A stretch of 18,567 bases of DNA. Source: Actinomycetota bacterium (GTDB taxonomy: Bacteria; Actinomycetota; UBA4738; CADDZG01; WHSQ01). The notes beneath the pieces are model-generated. The model was given only the letters and a program-made list of their open reading frames with translations, was not told where the DNA came from and ran no database searches. Both the position numbers and the translations under genes were made by a program. Position 1 is the first letter of the stretch. The number at the start of each line of letters is the position of its first letter. Of the stretch, positions 7,504 to 16,864 are shown piece after piece. The stretch covers positions 1 to 18,567 of the forward strand of contig JAUJNU010000021.1 of NCBI GenBank assembly GCA_030448085.1, written 5' to 3'.

Positions 7504-8156
7504 GTGCACCGCCGGCTCCGGAAGGTGCAGGGTGATTTCCGTCCCAAGGAGGCTCGCCCGGTTATCGACGAGCTCATCCTCACGGTTCTGTCGCAGCACA
7601 CCTCGGACACGAACCGCGACAGAGCCTTCGCCGGCTTGCGATCACGCTTCGGCGATTGGACCGAGGTCGCCGAAGCGCCGGTCGAGGGTGTGGCCGACTC
7701 GATCCGGGCCGGCGGGATAGCCAACGTCAAAGCCGCTCGCATCCAGGAGATCCTGCGCCGGATCGAAGCACAGGAGGAAGCCTCGACCTCGCCTGCCTCA
7801 CCTCGATGTCCGACGAAGAGGTCGAGTCCTATCTGGTCGCCCTCCCAGGCGTGGGGTTGAAGACAGCGGCCTGCGTACTTGCGTTCTCGATGGGGCGTGC
7901 GGCTTTCGCGATCGACACGCACGTGCACCGCATCTCGCGCCGGCTCGGCTGGATATCTGACAAGACCTCGGCGGAGCGCGCGCACCGCGAGCTGAAACCC
8001 TCGGTCCCTCCGGAGATCCGTTACGACCTGCACGTTGCTTTCATCGAGCACGGCCGCAAGGTCTGCTTCGCTCTCATTCCGCGCTGCTCGGAATGCGTGC
8101 TCCTCTACCTCTGCGACGCGGGGCCGACGTTCCTAGCCTCCGGCACAGCCATCTAG
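7504..8156 (+). CDS. nth: Endonuclease III, interrupted by a one-base frameshift
   Basis: DNA glycosylase/AP lyase of base-excision repair, removing oxidised pyrimidines. Two frames together make one protein. 7504 to about 7776 gives the N-terminal helices (DELILTVLSQHTSDTNRDRAF, then IRAGGIANVKAARIQEIL). About 7776 to 8156 gives the helix-hairpin-helix LPGVGLKTA with catalytic Lys, AIDTHVHR with catalytic Asp, and the C-X6-C-X2-C-X5-C iron-sulfur motif (VCFALIPRCSECVLLYLC). The break is at CAG GAG GAA (7771-7779): reading base 7776 twice restores EGSLDLACL. So one base is missing, or a -1 shift is needed. All catalytic residues survive, which favours a recent mutation or a base-call error over old decay. 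The proposed start is GTG 7504, without a clear ribosome site, 33 bases after dnaB. Confidence 0.85.
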
Positions 8157-12337: not shown

Positions 12338-14512
12338 CTAGGTGGTGCCCGGGTCTCCCGGCCCCACCGGCTGTCCGGTCATCTCGCTGGTTTCCTGGGT
12401 CGCCGGATAGTCGTTCCCGTTGGCCTCCGACCCGTTCCCATTGGAGCCGTTGCCGTTCGTCTTCGCGATCGTGGAGTCCGGGTGGAACTCGATCGACTGC
12501 AGGAGCAATTGGGCCACGTCCTTCACGACCATCTGCTCGTCCGCATGCCGTTCCGTGATGCCGTCCGACAACATGATGTTGCAGAACGGACAGCCAACCG
12601 CGAGGGTGTCTGAAGCCGAGGCGAGCGCCTCGTCGGTGCGCTCCATGTTGACCTTCTTGCCCATGCGCTCTTCCATCCACATGCGACCTCCGCCCGCGCC
12701 GCAGCAGAACGTCGAGTGCCCGTGCCGCTTCAGCTCGCCGTACTCGGCCCCCGGGATCGACTCGATGACGTTACGAGCGCCCTTCCACAGATCGTTGTGG
12801 CGGGCGTTGTAGCAGGGGTCGTGGTACGTGACCTTGGCGGCCATCTCGCCCTCGGGCTTGAGGCGCCCCTCCTTCACGAGGTCCGCCAGGTACTCGGTGT
12901 GGTGCACGACTTCGAACACCCCGCCGAGCTGTGGGTACTCGTTGAACATCGTGTTGAAGCAGTGGGGGCAGATCGTGACGATCTTCTTGACCTTGTTCTC
13001 TTTGAGGAGCTCGATCGTCTGCTCCGCGAGCATCTGGTAGATGTACTCGGCCCCCATCCGGCGGGCAGGGTCACCGTTGCAGTTCTCGTCCGACCCGAGC
13101 ACTGCGAAGGAGACGCCGGCGATCTGCATCAGTTTCGCAAAGTCGTAGACGACCCTCTTGTTGCGGTCGTCGTAGGCTCCGGCGCAGCCGACCCAGAACA
13201 GCACCTCGGCATCGGGGGCCTCTGAGATGTGAGGGATCTTCAGCGGCTCTTGACGCGAGGTCCCGTTCATCCATTCGACGCGCGCCTGAGGGGGCTGGCC
13301 CCACGGGTTCCCGGTCGTCTCCATGCTCTGGAGCGCGCTCTGCATCTCCTTGGGGAAGCGTGATTCGGTCATCACCAGGTTCCGCCGCATGTCCATGATC
13401 GCGTCGATGTGCTCGATGTCTACCGGACACGCCTGCACGCAGGCTCCGCAAGTCGTGCAGTCCCAGATCACCTCGTCCTCGATGACCCCGGGGTTCAGCG
13501 CGGGCAGCTCTTCGAGGGCCTGGGCGTAAGCCTCCGGCCCCTTGTTCTTAGCGGCGAGCAGCTTCGGTCCCTCCGCGAACATGTGATCGCGGATGTCCAT
13601 GATCAGGAGCTTCGGAGAGAGCGGCTTCCCGGTGTTCCAGGCGGGGCACTGCGACTGGCAGCGGCCGCACTCCGTGCAAGTCATCCCGTCGAGGAGCTGC
13701 TTCCAGCTGAGGTCGGTCACCTTCCCCGCGCCGAAGGTGTCGTCCTCGCTCATCGTCTCGATATCGATGTCCATCTTCTTGAGAGCGCCCTTCGGCCGCT
13801 CTGAGACGAAGAGGACGTTGAAGCCGGCCGTGATGATGTGGAGGTGCTTCGAGTAGGTGATGTAGACGAGGAAGGCCAGGATGATGAGCGAGTGCCACCA
13901 CAGGAAGATCGTGTCGAGAGCCTCTCTCGTCGCGAGGGAGAAGCCCTGGAAGATCTGCGCGGTCGCGTTGGAGGCGGGGGTCCAGCGAACGTCGTAAGGG
14001 AAGTGCCCGAGCGAGATCTCGGCCCCCCGGGTGAAAAGGATCGTCAGCATGATCCCGGTGATCGCGAACAGGATGTACTCGGCCTCTTCGCCGTGTGATC
14101 CCTTGAACCGCCCCGGCCTTTGGATCCTGCGGATAGCGAAGGCAACGCCGATGCTTGCGAGGACCGCTACGACGAAGAAGTCCTGGATCAGCCCGAGAGG
14201 GCCCCACTGCCCGATGATCGGGATGTGGAAGCCTTCCTGATAGACGGCCCCGAACGCCTCGATGATCGTCGTGAAGAGGATCACGAAGCCCCAGAAGATG
14301 AAGAAGTGCATGATGCCTGGAACGGTCCATTGCAGGAGCTTTCGCTGTCCGAACACGACGACGATCTGGTCCTTCATCTTGCGCTTCCAGTCGCGCGGCT
14401 TGCGGTCCTCGTTCGCTCCCAGACGGAGGAGCCCGACGAGCTCCCGGGACCTCCAGGCGAACGCCCCAAGGGTGAGGAGGAGGAGCACAGTCATGACAAG
14501 CTTCTCGAGCAC
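12338..14512 (-). CDS. etfD: Membrane FeS oxidoreductase, EtfD-like (ETF:menaquinone link)
   Basis: Likely passes electrons from electron-transfer flavoprotein, reduced by acyl-CoA dehydrogenases, to menaquinone, as described for EtfD (Rv0338c) of M. tuberculosis. The 724 residues have an N-terminal membrane b-type domain like NarI (helices at about 5-25, 61-85, 107-127, 146-163, 200-222, with His69, His170, His207, His223), two 4Fe-4S motifs (Cys279/282/285/289 and Cys352/355/358/362), and two cysteine-rich CCG domains. CCG2 has CCGAGGGR (603-610) and CPFC (641-644). In CCG1 the motif is ENCNGDPARR, with Asn where a second Cys would be, a replacement that seems usual in this subfamily. The last 45 residues are an Asn/Gly-rich tail with no known fold. 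The start is GTG 14512 with AGAGAGG upstream. No etfAB genes are in the window. Confidence 0.85.
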   Translation of the reverse strand: MLEKLVMTVLLLLTLGAFAWRSRELVGLLRLGANEDRKPRDWKRKMKDQIVVVFGQRKLLQWTVPGIMHFFIFWGFVILFTTIIEAFGAVYQEGFHIPIIGQWGPLGLIQDFFVVAVLASIGVAFAIRRIQRPGRFKGSHGEEAEYILFAITGIMLTILFTRGAEISLGHFPYDVRWTPASNATAQIFQGFSLATREALDTIFLWWHSLIILAFLVYITYSKHLHIITAGFNVLFVSERPKGALKKMDIDIETMSEDDTFGAGKVTDLSWKQLLDGMTCTECGRCQSQCPAWNTGKPLSPKLLIMDIRDHMFAEGPKLLAAKNKGPEAYAQALEELPALNPGVIEDEVIWDCTTCGACVQACPVDIEHIDAIMDMRRNLVMTESRFPKEMQSALQSMETTGNPWGQPPQARVEWMNGTSRQEPLKIPHISEAPDAEVLFWVGCAGAYDDRNKRVVYDFAKLMQIAGVSFAVLGSDENCNGDPARRMGAEYIYQMLAEQTIELLKENKVKKIVTICPHCFNTMFNEYPQLGGVFEVVHHTEYLADLVKEGRLKPEGEMAAKVTYHDPCYNARHNDLWKGARNVIESIPGAEYGELKRHGHSTFCCGAGGGRMWMEERMGKKVNMERTDEALASASDTLAVGCPFCNIMLSDGITERHADEQMVVKDVAQLLLQSIEFHPDSTIAKTNGNGSNGNGSEANGNDYPATQETSEMTGQPVGPGDPGTT

Positions 14513-14566: not shown

Positions 14567-14609
14567 GGTCGCGCCTGTACCCGCACCTGGTGAGTTGGAG
14601 GTTTTTTCG

Positions 14610-15275
14610 ATGAGGATCGAGGTCCCCGGAGGAGAGGTGTCGGCTCTGCTGGACGGGAGCCCGGAAGCGGCCACCGCCTGCCTGATCCTGGCCCCGGGGG
14701 CCGGGGCGGGCAAGGAGCACCCGTTCATGGCCGCCGTCGCGGAAGGTCTCGCGGCGAGGGGCATCCTCACCTTCCGCTTCGACTTCCTCTACGCCGAGGC
14801 CGGCCGCAAGGCCCCGGACCGGCAACCGGTTCTCGAGGCGACCTACCGGGCCGTCGCCGCCCACGTGAGGGCCGAGCACTCGGGCCTCCCGCTCTTCCTC
14901 GGCGGCAAGTCGATGGGGGGCCGCATCGCTTCACACATAGCCTCGGGCGAGGAGGGGGTCGCTACTGATGGGCTCGTCTTCCTCGGATACCCCCTGCATC
15001 CTCCCGGGCGGCCCGAGCGGTTGCGGGACGCGCACCTGTCGGCCGTCTCCGCGCCCATGCTGTTCGTGGAGGGCACCCGGGACCCCTTCTGTCCGCTCGG
15101 CACCCTCGAAGCCAGCCTCGCGAAGGTGCACGCGCCCACCGCCGTGCACGTGATCGAGGACGGTGACCACTCGTTCAAGGTGAGGAAGTCGTCGGGCCGC
15201 AGCAGTGCCGCCGCGCTCGATGAGGTCATCGAGGTCGTGTCCGCATGGGTCCTTGCCCGGGCTGGCCGCACTTAG
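14610..15275 (+). CDS. Alpha/beta hydrolase of the KANL3/Tex30 (dienelactone hydrolase-like) type
   Basis: A serine hydrolase of unknown substrate. With ATG 14610 it has 221 residues. The nucleophile elbow is GGKSMGGR with Ser101; acid and base candidates are Asp158 (GTRDPF) and His187 (GDHSF), and an oxyanion region is LAPGAGAGKEHPFM (about 27-40). ATG 14610 is chosen over an in-frame TTG at 14595 because GGAGG (14597-14601) lies eight bases before the ATG and overlaps the TTG region. It is divergent from etfD, with a shared 97-base promoter region. The selenoprotein gene begins nine bases after its stop, so the two are likely one transcript, but a functional link is only a guess. Confidence 0.85.
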   Translation: MRIEVPGGEVSALLDGSPEAATACLILAPGAGAGKEHPFMAAVAEGLAARGILTFRFDFLYAEAGRKAPDRQPVLEATYRAVAAHVRAEHSGLPLFLGGKSMGGRIASHIASGEEGVATDGLVFLGYPLHPPGRPERLRDAHLSAVSAPMLFVEGTRDPFCPLGTLEASLAKVHAPTAVHVIEDGDHSFKVRKSSGRSSAAALDEVIEVVSAWVLARAGRT

Positions 15276-15284
15276 GATCGGCGG

Positions 15285-15524
15285 ATGAGACTGAGGATCG
15301 AGTACTGCCAGAAGTGAGGCTATGCCCCTAGAGCCGTCGGTCTGACGGAGAGGGTGTTGGAGGAGTTCGAGGCTGACCTGGAAGAGGTGGTGCTGGTCCC
15401 CTCCACGGGCGGTGTCTTCGAGGTCGATCTCGGCGAGGAGCGCATCTACTCGAAGAAACAGACGGGTAAGCACGTCGAGCACGACGTGATACTGCGGTCG
15501 TTACGGGAGCGCCTGCGCCCCTAG
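15285..15524 (+). CDS. selW: Selenoprotein W-like protein (Rdx family), UGA read as selenocysteine
   Basis: A thioredoxin-like-fold redox protein of the Rdx (SelW/SelT/SelH) family, normally cytosolic. It opens MRLRIEYCQK, then TGA at 15315-15317, then GYAPRAVGLTERVLEEFE. Reading TGA as selenocysteine gives a CxxU motif (Cys8, Sec11) at the family's position after the first strand. Downstream the frame stays open to TAG at 15522-15524 and carries the second family signature: STGGVFEVDLGEERIYSKKQ (40-59), then TGKH. The total is 79 residues, within the usual 75-90. A SECIS-like hairpin starts nine bases after the UGA. Treating TGA as a stop leaves ten residues and ignores 207 bases of family-specific coding sequence. 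The ATG at 15285 is nine bases after the hydrolase stop. The Sec machinery (selA, selB, selC, selD) must be elsewhere in the genome. Confidence 0.9.
15326..15354 (+). promoter_or_regulatory. Bacterial SECIS element of selW
   Basis: CCGTC (15334-15338) and GACGG (15344-15348) form a perfect stem with the five-base loop GGTCT (15339-15343). Below an internal loop, CCCT (15326-15329) pairs with AGGG (15351-15354). The loop begins 21 bases after the UGA, within the 16-37 range known for bacterial SECIS. GGUCU is also the core of the E. coli fdhF SECIS loop bound by SelB. It lies within the coding frame, as expected in bacteria. Confidence 0.85.
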
Positions 15525-16864
15525 CTTTGCAGCATCTCCCCGATCTGGAACGCCAGGTCGAGCGACTGGCGGGCGTTCAGCCGGGGATCACAGAGTGCGT
15601 GGTAGCGGCTCGCGAGGTCTGCATCGAAAACCTCCTCGGCCCCCCCGAGGCACTCGGTCACGTCCTCGGCCGTCAGCTCCAGGTGAACCCCACCGGGGAC
15701 GCTCCCCTCGTCGGCGTGGACCCCGAAGAACTCTTTTATCTCACCCAGCACGTCGGTGAATCGCCTGGTCTTCAGCTTGGACTCCGTCGTGAAGGTGTTC
15801 CCGTGCATCGGGTCGCAGATCCAGGTGATGTCCCACCCCGCCCCCTTGACCCCGCGGATCAGCCCAGGGAGGGTCTCCCCGACTTTGCCGGCCCCCATCC
15901 TCGTGATGAACGAGAGCCGCCCGGGCTCCCTTTCGGGGTCCAGCCTCTCGCAGAGCGCCACGGCTTCATCCGGGGTTGCGGTGGGACCGAGCTTCACCGC
16001 GACCGGGTTCCTCACACCTGACAGGAACTCGAGGTGCGCACCGTCCAGCTGGCGCGTGCGCTCGCCTACCCATAGGAGGTGCGCGGAGCAGTCGTACCAC
16101 TCGTCCGTGAGGCTGTCGCGTCGGGTGAGCGCCTCTTCGAAGGGAAGGAGCAGCGCCTCGTGCGAGGTGTAGAAGTCCACCTCGTGGAGGGCCGAGTCGG
16201 CCCCCAGGTCCACGCCGCAGGCGCCCATGAACTGCAGCGCACGCTCGATCTGACGCGCGATCTCGTTGTATCGCACCCCCTGTTTGCTGGCGGCGACGAA
16301 CTCCTGGTTCCAGTTGTGGATCTGCCTGAGGTCGGCGAACCCGCCTTTCGTGAAGGCTCGGATCAGGTTGAGGGTCGCGGCCGACTGGTTGTACGCCTTC
16401 AGCATCCGCTGCGGGTCCGGGCGCCTCGCCTCTGGATCGAACGCGTCGCCGTTGACCGCGTGTCCACGGAATGCGGGGATGCTGACTCCGTCCTTCTCCT
16501 GGAGTGGCTTCGATCTCGGCTTCGCGAACTGCCCCGCGATCCGGCCCACCTTCACCACGGGCAGCCCCGACGCGTAGGTGAGCACGACCGCCATCTGGAG
16601 GATCACCTTCAGCTTGTCCCGGATCGAGTCAGCAGAGAAGTCGGAGAAGGACTCGGCGCAGTCCCCCGCCTGTAGCACGAAGGCTTGGCCCCTCGCGGCT
16701 TCCGCGAGCGAGCTCTTCAGCTGGCGCGCCTCGCCTGCGAACACGAGGGGCGGCAGGCTCTTCAGCTCGTCCAGAGCCCGCCCGAGCGCGGTCTCATCCG
16801 GCCACTCCGGCTGCTGACCGGCCGGGCGCTCTCTCCATGAAGGCGGGGACCAAGTGATGCTCAT
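15521..16864 (-). CDS. aroG: 3-deoxy-D-arabino-heptulosonate 7-phosphate synthase, type II
   Basis: First step of the shikimate pathway: condenses phosphoenolpyruvate and erythrose 4-phosphate. The 447 residues are typical of type II (plant/mycobacterial) enzymes: FVLQAGDCAESF with metal-ligand Cys69, GRIAGQFAKPRS, IHNWNQEF, LWVGERTRQLDGAHLEF, NPVAVKLGPTAT, FITRMGAGKV, CDPMHGNTFT with a metal His, GGVHLELTAEDVTECLGG with a metal Glu, and CDPRLNARQSLDLAF with a metal Asp. ATG 16864 is the start because MSITWSPPSW fits the family; the frame continues open upstream for about 1.2 kb, but only as antisense to the threonine ammonia-lyase gene. Its stop codon overlaps the selW stop (CTAG, 15521-15524). 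It is divergent from ilvA. The N-terminus is shorter than that of the regulated M. tuberculosis enzyme. Confidence 0.96.
   Translation of the reverse strand: MSITWSPPSWRERPAGQQPEWPDETALGRALDELKSLPPLVFAGEARQLKSSLAEAARGQAFVLQAGDCAESFSDFSADSIRDKLKVILQMAVVLTYASGLPVVKVGRIAGQFAKPRSKPLQEKDGVSIPAFRGHAVNGDAFDPEARRPDPQRMLKAYNQSAATLNLIRAFTKGGFADLRQIHNWNQEFVAASKQGVRYNEIARQIERALQFMGACGVDLGADSALHEVDFYTSHEALLLPFEEALTRRDSLTDEWYDCSAHLLWVGERTRQLDGAHLEFLSGVRNPVAVKLGPTATPDEAVALCERLDPEREPGRLSFITRMGAGKVGETLPGLIRGVKGAGWDITWICDPMHGNTFTTESKLKTRRFTDVLGEIKEFFGVHADEGSVPGGVHLELTAEDVTECLGGAEEVFDADLASRYHALCDPRLNARQSLDLAFQIGEMLQS

Follow-up and report, generated by a model that had tools for sequence, protein, structure and literature searches.

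A predicted SelW-like selenoprotein gene with an in-frame UGA on an actinobacterial contig

Described SelW-like selenoproteins and the gene at 15285–15524

Bacterial SelW-like selenoproteins (PF10262; TIGR02174) share a CxxU motif, a thioredoxin-like fold and a hairpin resembling a selenocysteine insertion sequence (SECIS), which is located 3′ of the UGA. Excerpts of a 2022 review list the SELENOW-like family (pfam10262, CxxU) among the known prokaryotic selenoproteins (PMC9312934), and portions of two surveys report 48 SelW-like selenoproteins in the Sargasso Sea set (PMC1088965) and ten in 2006 (PMC1794560). Here we describe a gene of this type on contig JAUJNU010000021.1 of an Actinomycetota bacterium (assembly GCA_030448085.1), within an 18,567-nucleotide stretch hereafter called the window. 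The segment 15285–15524 is almost certainly a functional SelW-like (Rdx) selenoprotein gene. A preliminary description of the sequence had proposed such a hidden gene, with UGA read as selenocysteine (Sec) in a CxxU motif, and the proposal is borne out computationally by the gene itself, its fold, orthologues with the same TGA, a conserved and covarying hairpin, and the Sec machinery of relatives. The presence of selenium in the product is a prediction from sequence. The main features are as follows.

15285–15524, forward strand: selW-like gene, 79 codons plus TAG, with a single in-frame UGA
15315–15317, forward strand: UGA codon 11, read as selenocysteine, forming CxxU with Cys8 (15306–15308)
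15274–15277, forward strand: AGGA, a putative Shine-Dalgarno-like element 7 nt 5′ of the ATG, with bases in common with the stop codon of the preceding gene
15334–15348, forward strand: predicted core hairpin of a bacterial SECIS, with CCGUC (15334–15338), loop GGUCU (15339–15343) and GACGG (15344–15348)

One of the closest described counterparts is the SelW-like gene of Thermomicrobium roseum (plasmid NC_011961.1, locus L002, 298–540). Like the window gene, it contains a CxxU motif with UGA (CTSUGY) and a five-pair hairpin at the same position, and it is annotated only from 3′ of the UGA. The two products are 37% identical, whereas the T. roseum hairpin has the loop CGUGC and its gene is followed by thiI instead of a DAHP (3-deoxy-D-arabino-heptulosonate 7-phosphate) synthase gene. 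As far as tested, the window gene differs from the bacterial SelW-like selenoproteins only in host lineage and in its neighbourhood (hydrolase, DAHP synthase, ilvA). It adds one member to the SelW family, the picture of which is unchanged, and suggests that an uncultured actinobacterial lineage uses selenocysteine. No description of this locus was found in the literature searched; a literature search on selenocysteine and Nitriliruptor returned nothing, and one on selenocysteine and Acidimicrobiia a single paper.

From the ATG at 15285 to the TAG ending at 15524, the frame is interrupted solely by the TGA at codon 11. With this TGA read as U, the product has 79 residues (MRLRIEYCQKUGYAPRAVGLTERVLEEFEADLEEVVLVPSTGGVFEVDLGEERIYSKKQTGKHVEHDVILRSLRERLRP) and scores 75 bits with Pfam Rdx, for which the cut-off is 22.6 (E 5e-21), in agreement with the family assignment made beforehand. 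It also matches TIGR02174 (CXXU_selWTH) with 60.1 bits, above the curated cut-off of 34.2. The score against the narrow equivalog NF041051 (SelTWH_Campy), 74.4 bits, lies below the cut-off of 88, indicating a related protein that is not a member of this subfamily. The motif Cys8-Gln-Lys-Sec11 directly follows the first strand (residues 2–8 in the model), and both of its CxxU columns are invariant across 33 alignment rows when U is read as C. The structure model displays the thioredoxin-like SelW fold with a predicted local distance difference test score (pLDDT) of 96. Two SelW-like structures, 3dex from Streptomyces avermitilis and 2fa8 from Agrobacterium, share 37% and 31% identity with the product, and their solved chains presumably carry Cys in the Sec position.

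Gene calling shortens the gene, as had been expected. The predicted protein of the window (P0002) has 55 amino acids and starts 3′ of the UGA, and a protein database search gives only two matches, P0002 itself and P0003, whose start is also located downstream of the motif. The locus thus represents a clean example of a gene missed by gene calling. Similarly, excerpts of a study on Epsilonproteobacteria describe some selenoprotein genes, notably SelW, as overlooked in annotation (PMC4607533).

Of the 17 frames listed for the window, none but the selW-like frame contains an inner TGA. If UGA were reassigned to Trp or another ordinary residue, the frame would equally be open through the UGA, but TGA terminates two other frames, dnaB and a zinc-finger gene, and therefore works as a stop elsewhere in the window. 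Moreover, the other 16 frames lack an inner TGA, all 11 of the 11 non-TGA homologues carry Cys, and the relative G001 possesses a tRNA-Sec with the anticodon tca. We consider a reassigned code extremely improbable.

Orthologues with UGA or Cys and the hairpin downstream

Homologous loci were collected by a contig scan with two peptide patterns, and the best 80 of 91 confirmed genome loci were kept. At the codon aligned to residue 11, these 80 loci contain 69 TGA, 9 TGC and 2 TGT, a share that does not describe the whole family because the query alignment used for ranking consisted largely of UGA genes. The loci come from Actinomycetota, Chloroflexota, Thermomicrobiota, Bacillota, Verrucomicrobiota, Planctomycetota, Synergistota and others. 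The best named match (60% identity) is locus L005 in G001, an Actinomycetota metagenome-assembled genome (MAG), and the DnaB proteins of G001 and the window are 77% identical over residues 2–396. SelW is found in 16 of the 24 genomes in the class of G001, with TGA inside the match in 14 and no stop in two; G029 shows two TGA over the match, and G036 one TGA and one TAG. The preliminary description knew of no such gene in this neighbourhood, a view contradicted by these 14 UGA-containing genomes. Within the class, DnaB identity to the window reaches only 80% (G020 and G025), and by this measure the window appears to belong in or near the class, close to none of its genomes.

In the SelW tree (99 rows, 80 columns, with many forks unresolved), the window groups with L126 from G016 (support 100/95), and the Cys label needs four changes. 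Two genes of the class, L007 and L135, encode Cys; they are sisters (99/90), and the pair joins the Sec gene L139 (95/86). Because of this grouping, the Cys state in L007 and L135 is more likely derived than ancestral.

The hairpin lies in the expected range behind the UGA. Excerpts of a published bacterial SECIS model specify a stem of 4–16 bp, a loop of 3–9 nt bearing G at its first two positions, a distance of 16–37 nt after the UGA and a minimum free energy of −7.5 or lower (PMC13188914). The window hairpin falls within these ranges, with 5 bp, the loop GGUCU, a distance of 21 nt 3′ of the UGA and −15.7 kcal/mol over 48 nt. The SECIS of Escherichia coli fdhF, a SelB site just after the UGA, has the same GGUCU loop with a different stem sequence and spacing.

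The hairpin was compared across 99 genes, comprising the window, four plasmid loci, the 80 genome loci and 14 further class loci, with L129 and L136 omitted because they duplicate L005 and L007. The complete set of five pairs occurs in 68 of the 84 TGA genes versus none of the 15 Cys genes, and four or more pairs occur in 74 of 84 versus 2 of 15. When the same 5-5-5 hairpin is slid to loop offsets 8–69, at most 13 of the 84 TGA genes form it at any other position. In addition, synonymous recoding that preserves the proteins yields on average 14.0 full stems (standard deviation 3.1, maximum 26 in 1000), compared with the 68 observed. At the hairpin site, the class Cys genes L007 and L135 read CCCUC GGCCU GAUCG and retain three of the five pairs. 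Orthologues with UGA and with Cys at a single locus together provide a natural control for the SECIS bases under selection.

For the covariation analysis, 71 of the 84 TGA genes were aligned without gaps, excluding 13 TGA class loci among L126–L141. In this alignment, 91.0% of the cells pair and 47 cells are changed on both sides, compared with 9.0 in shuffled alignments, of which none in 500 reached the observed count. For the covariation score, the value of 0.450 compares with 0.218 when shuffled (none of 500 shuffles reaching 0.450) and 0.074–0.185 when slid. Kinship alone can lift scores from this tool above shuffles without any structure, and such an artefact is unlikely here given the controls by sliding and by synonymous recoding and the state of the Cys genes. 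Unaided, RNAalifold recovers four of the five pairs, omitting the outermost one and enclosing a three-base loop with an additional inner pair.

These comparisons bear on two further explanations. If the gene were a pseudogene, formerly Cys-coding and ended by a true stop at codon 11, a stop codon in the frame would be expected, and the sel machinery described here comes from relatives. This explanation is very unlikely in view of the identical TGA in most of the best loci and in all but two of the 16 class genomes holding SelW, the conserved protein 3′ of the UGA, where the preliminary description had named degrading sequence in relatives as a refutation, and the covarying hairpin, complete in most UGA genes and in no Cys gene. 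Sequencing or assembly error, by which TGC or TGT (Cys) became TGA, is still less probable, to a degree that we regard as negligible. The contig does contain a possible indel elsewhere (in an endonuclease III-like gene, near 7780–7800), but the same TGA recurs in separate genomes, and the window has the UGA-type hairpin that is missing from the two class Cys genes.

For the selenoprotein gene favoured here, we propose that SelB carrying Sec-tRNA(Sec) probably binds the hairpin CCGUC-GGUCU-GACGG, and that the ribosome would place selenocysteine at the UGA without termination, giving a 79-residue thioredoxin-like protein. The redox site would be Cys8-x-x-Sec11, immediately following strand 1. 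Its selenol probably reacts with an oxidised thiol or a peroxide, resulting in a selenenylsulfide with Cys8, which would then be re-reduced, probably by a low-molecular-weight thiol or thioredoxin.

Selenocysteine machinery in relatives

The window is a single contig, and evidence on sel genes is drawn from the genomes of relatives. Within the window, ARAGORN found no tRNA-Sec, and the only match at Rfam gathering level is one tRNA. The Fe–S protein at 12338–14512, checked since such proteins can be selenoproteins, has no inner TGA.

G001 contains a tRNA-Sec (83 bits), which ARAGORN also reads as tRNA-Sec, together with selA (519.3 bits), selB (328.7 bits) and selD (388.3 bits), and its SelD is itself UGA-coded (GGGUACK). 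Of the 24 genomes in the class of G001, 19 have selA above the cut-off and 17 have tRNA-Sec. Among the 14 class genomes with a UGA-containing SelW, 11 have selA, 12 have tRNA-Sec (scoring only 50 bits in G024) and 10 have both. Most of the close bacterial relatives thus appear, as judged from their genomes, to share the gene, the RNA signal and the reading machinery. As expected, Nocardiopsis G006, which has a Cys-containing SelW, lacks a selA match and any tRNA-Sec or selB over the cut-off.

Selenocysteine had been called uncommon in the phylum. This does not hold for the genomes examined, since selA exceeds the cut-off in 226 of 396 Actinomycetota genomes, drawn evenly from a larger group and not forming a census. 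Symbiobacterium has since been moved out of the Actinobacteria. Excerpts of the 2006 survey, which includes this genus, assign 12 selenoprotein families and 19 selenoproteins to the Actinobacteria (PMC1794560).

Several observations weigh against selenocysteine insertion at this UGA. The support from sel machinery comes from relatives and not from the window's own genome, and searches of some genomes with a UGA-containing SelW left gaps. Within the class, neither selA nor tRNA-Sec was found in G018, no selA in G023 and G024, and no tRNA-Sec in G036; outside it, G005 has neither selA nor tRNA-Sec over the cut-off, and a search of G007 matched neither selA nor selB. These gaps likely reflect incomplete drafts. 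As for the hairpin, 16 of the 84 TGA genes lack a full stem at its position, two of the 15 Cys genes have four of the five pairs, and the number of pairs with two-sided change, four versus 3.0 in shuffles (125 of 500 as high), shows no excess. Furthermore, the window hairpin taken alone is ordinary (z −0.84; 35 of 200 shuffles fold equally well), and its 5-bp stem survives in 410 of 1000 synonymous recodings of the window. The weight of the hairpin evidence therefore lies in the comparison across genes, and the fold of the single sequence is not used as proof.

The two class genomes with a Cys-containing SelW differ in their machinery. G003, which holds locus L007, keeps selA, selB and two tRNA-Sec genes, whereas G028 has selA and no tRNA-Sec that we could find. 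G003 also gives two strong selD matches, both without TGA. Either its Sec machinery is retained although SelW and SelD no longer use Sec, or the genome is a mixed bin.

Gene neighbourhood and stop codons of the window

Two genes adjoin the selW-like gene.

14595–15275, forward strand: alpha/beta hydrolase (Abhydrolase_11), ending 9 nt 5′ of the selW ATG
15521–16804, reverse strand: class-II DAHP synthase, convergent, with a 4-nt tail-to-tail overlap with selW; its start is possibly slightly upstream of 16804

The hydrolase gene is a possible transcription partner of selW; among the 16 class loci, L128 and L131 have it next to selW. Within flanks of up to 1.5 kb, DAHP synthase or ilvA accompanies SelW in 15 of the 16 class loci, with DAHP synthase in 11 and ilvA in four more (L129, L138, L140 and L141); neither was found in the flanks of L139. 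The gene order varies, with ilvA upstream of SelW in L138, L140 and L141 and DAHP synthase about 0.7 kb from SelW in L137. Comparison of nine loci outside the class (L006, L008, L009, L010, L011, L020, L035, L036 and L056) with 11 window proteins revealed no common neighbourhood, the sole match being a weak ilvA in L011 (33%). The source of L011, G005, is a MAG titled Acidobacteria but placed in the phylum of G001, and is mislabelled or incomplete.

A broader history of the locus may be sketched, which we hold as tentative and somewhat doubtful. In this little-described actinobacterial class, Sec could be ancestral and class-wide, and the SelW locus near DAHP synthase or ilvA could have kept its SECIS for the age of the class, the hairpin dictating residues 17–21 (AVGLT); a single Cys replacement (L007, L135) would have erased the hairpin though the Sec machinery stayed. 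This history is weakened because the Cys genome G028 shows no tRNA-Sec. If true, the replacement at L007 and L135 would constitute a natural before-and-after experiment on the SECIS.

Elsewhere in the window, the endonuclease III-like gene (HhH-GPD, 7504–8156) is split over two overlapping frames, with a shift near 7780–7800 that reflects either an assembly error or a broken gene. In some class relatives (G001:C1:428390-431005, G017 and G027), DnaB is interrupted after about residue 397 by an intein-like insert within one long open frame; the window DnaB has none.

The 17 window frames end in 15 TAG, two TGA and no TAA. Such TAG-rich, TAA-free stop usage seems odd at 65% GC, and the TAG excess may mark a Sec user's move to stops other than UGA. 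Simple open reading frame calls give 11 TAG and two TGA among 13 stops in the window, seven TAG among 14 in L005, and 30 TAG among 69 when 24 small loci from G001, G003 and class relatives are combined.
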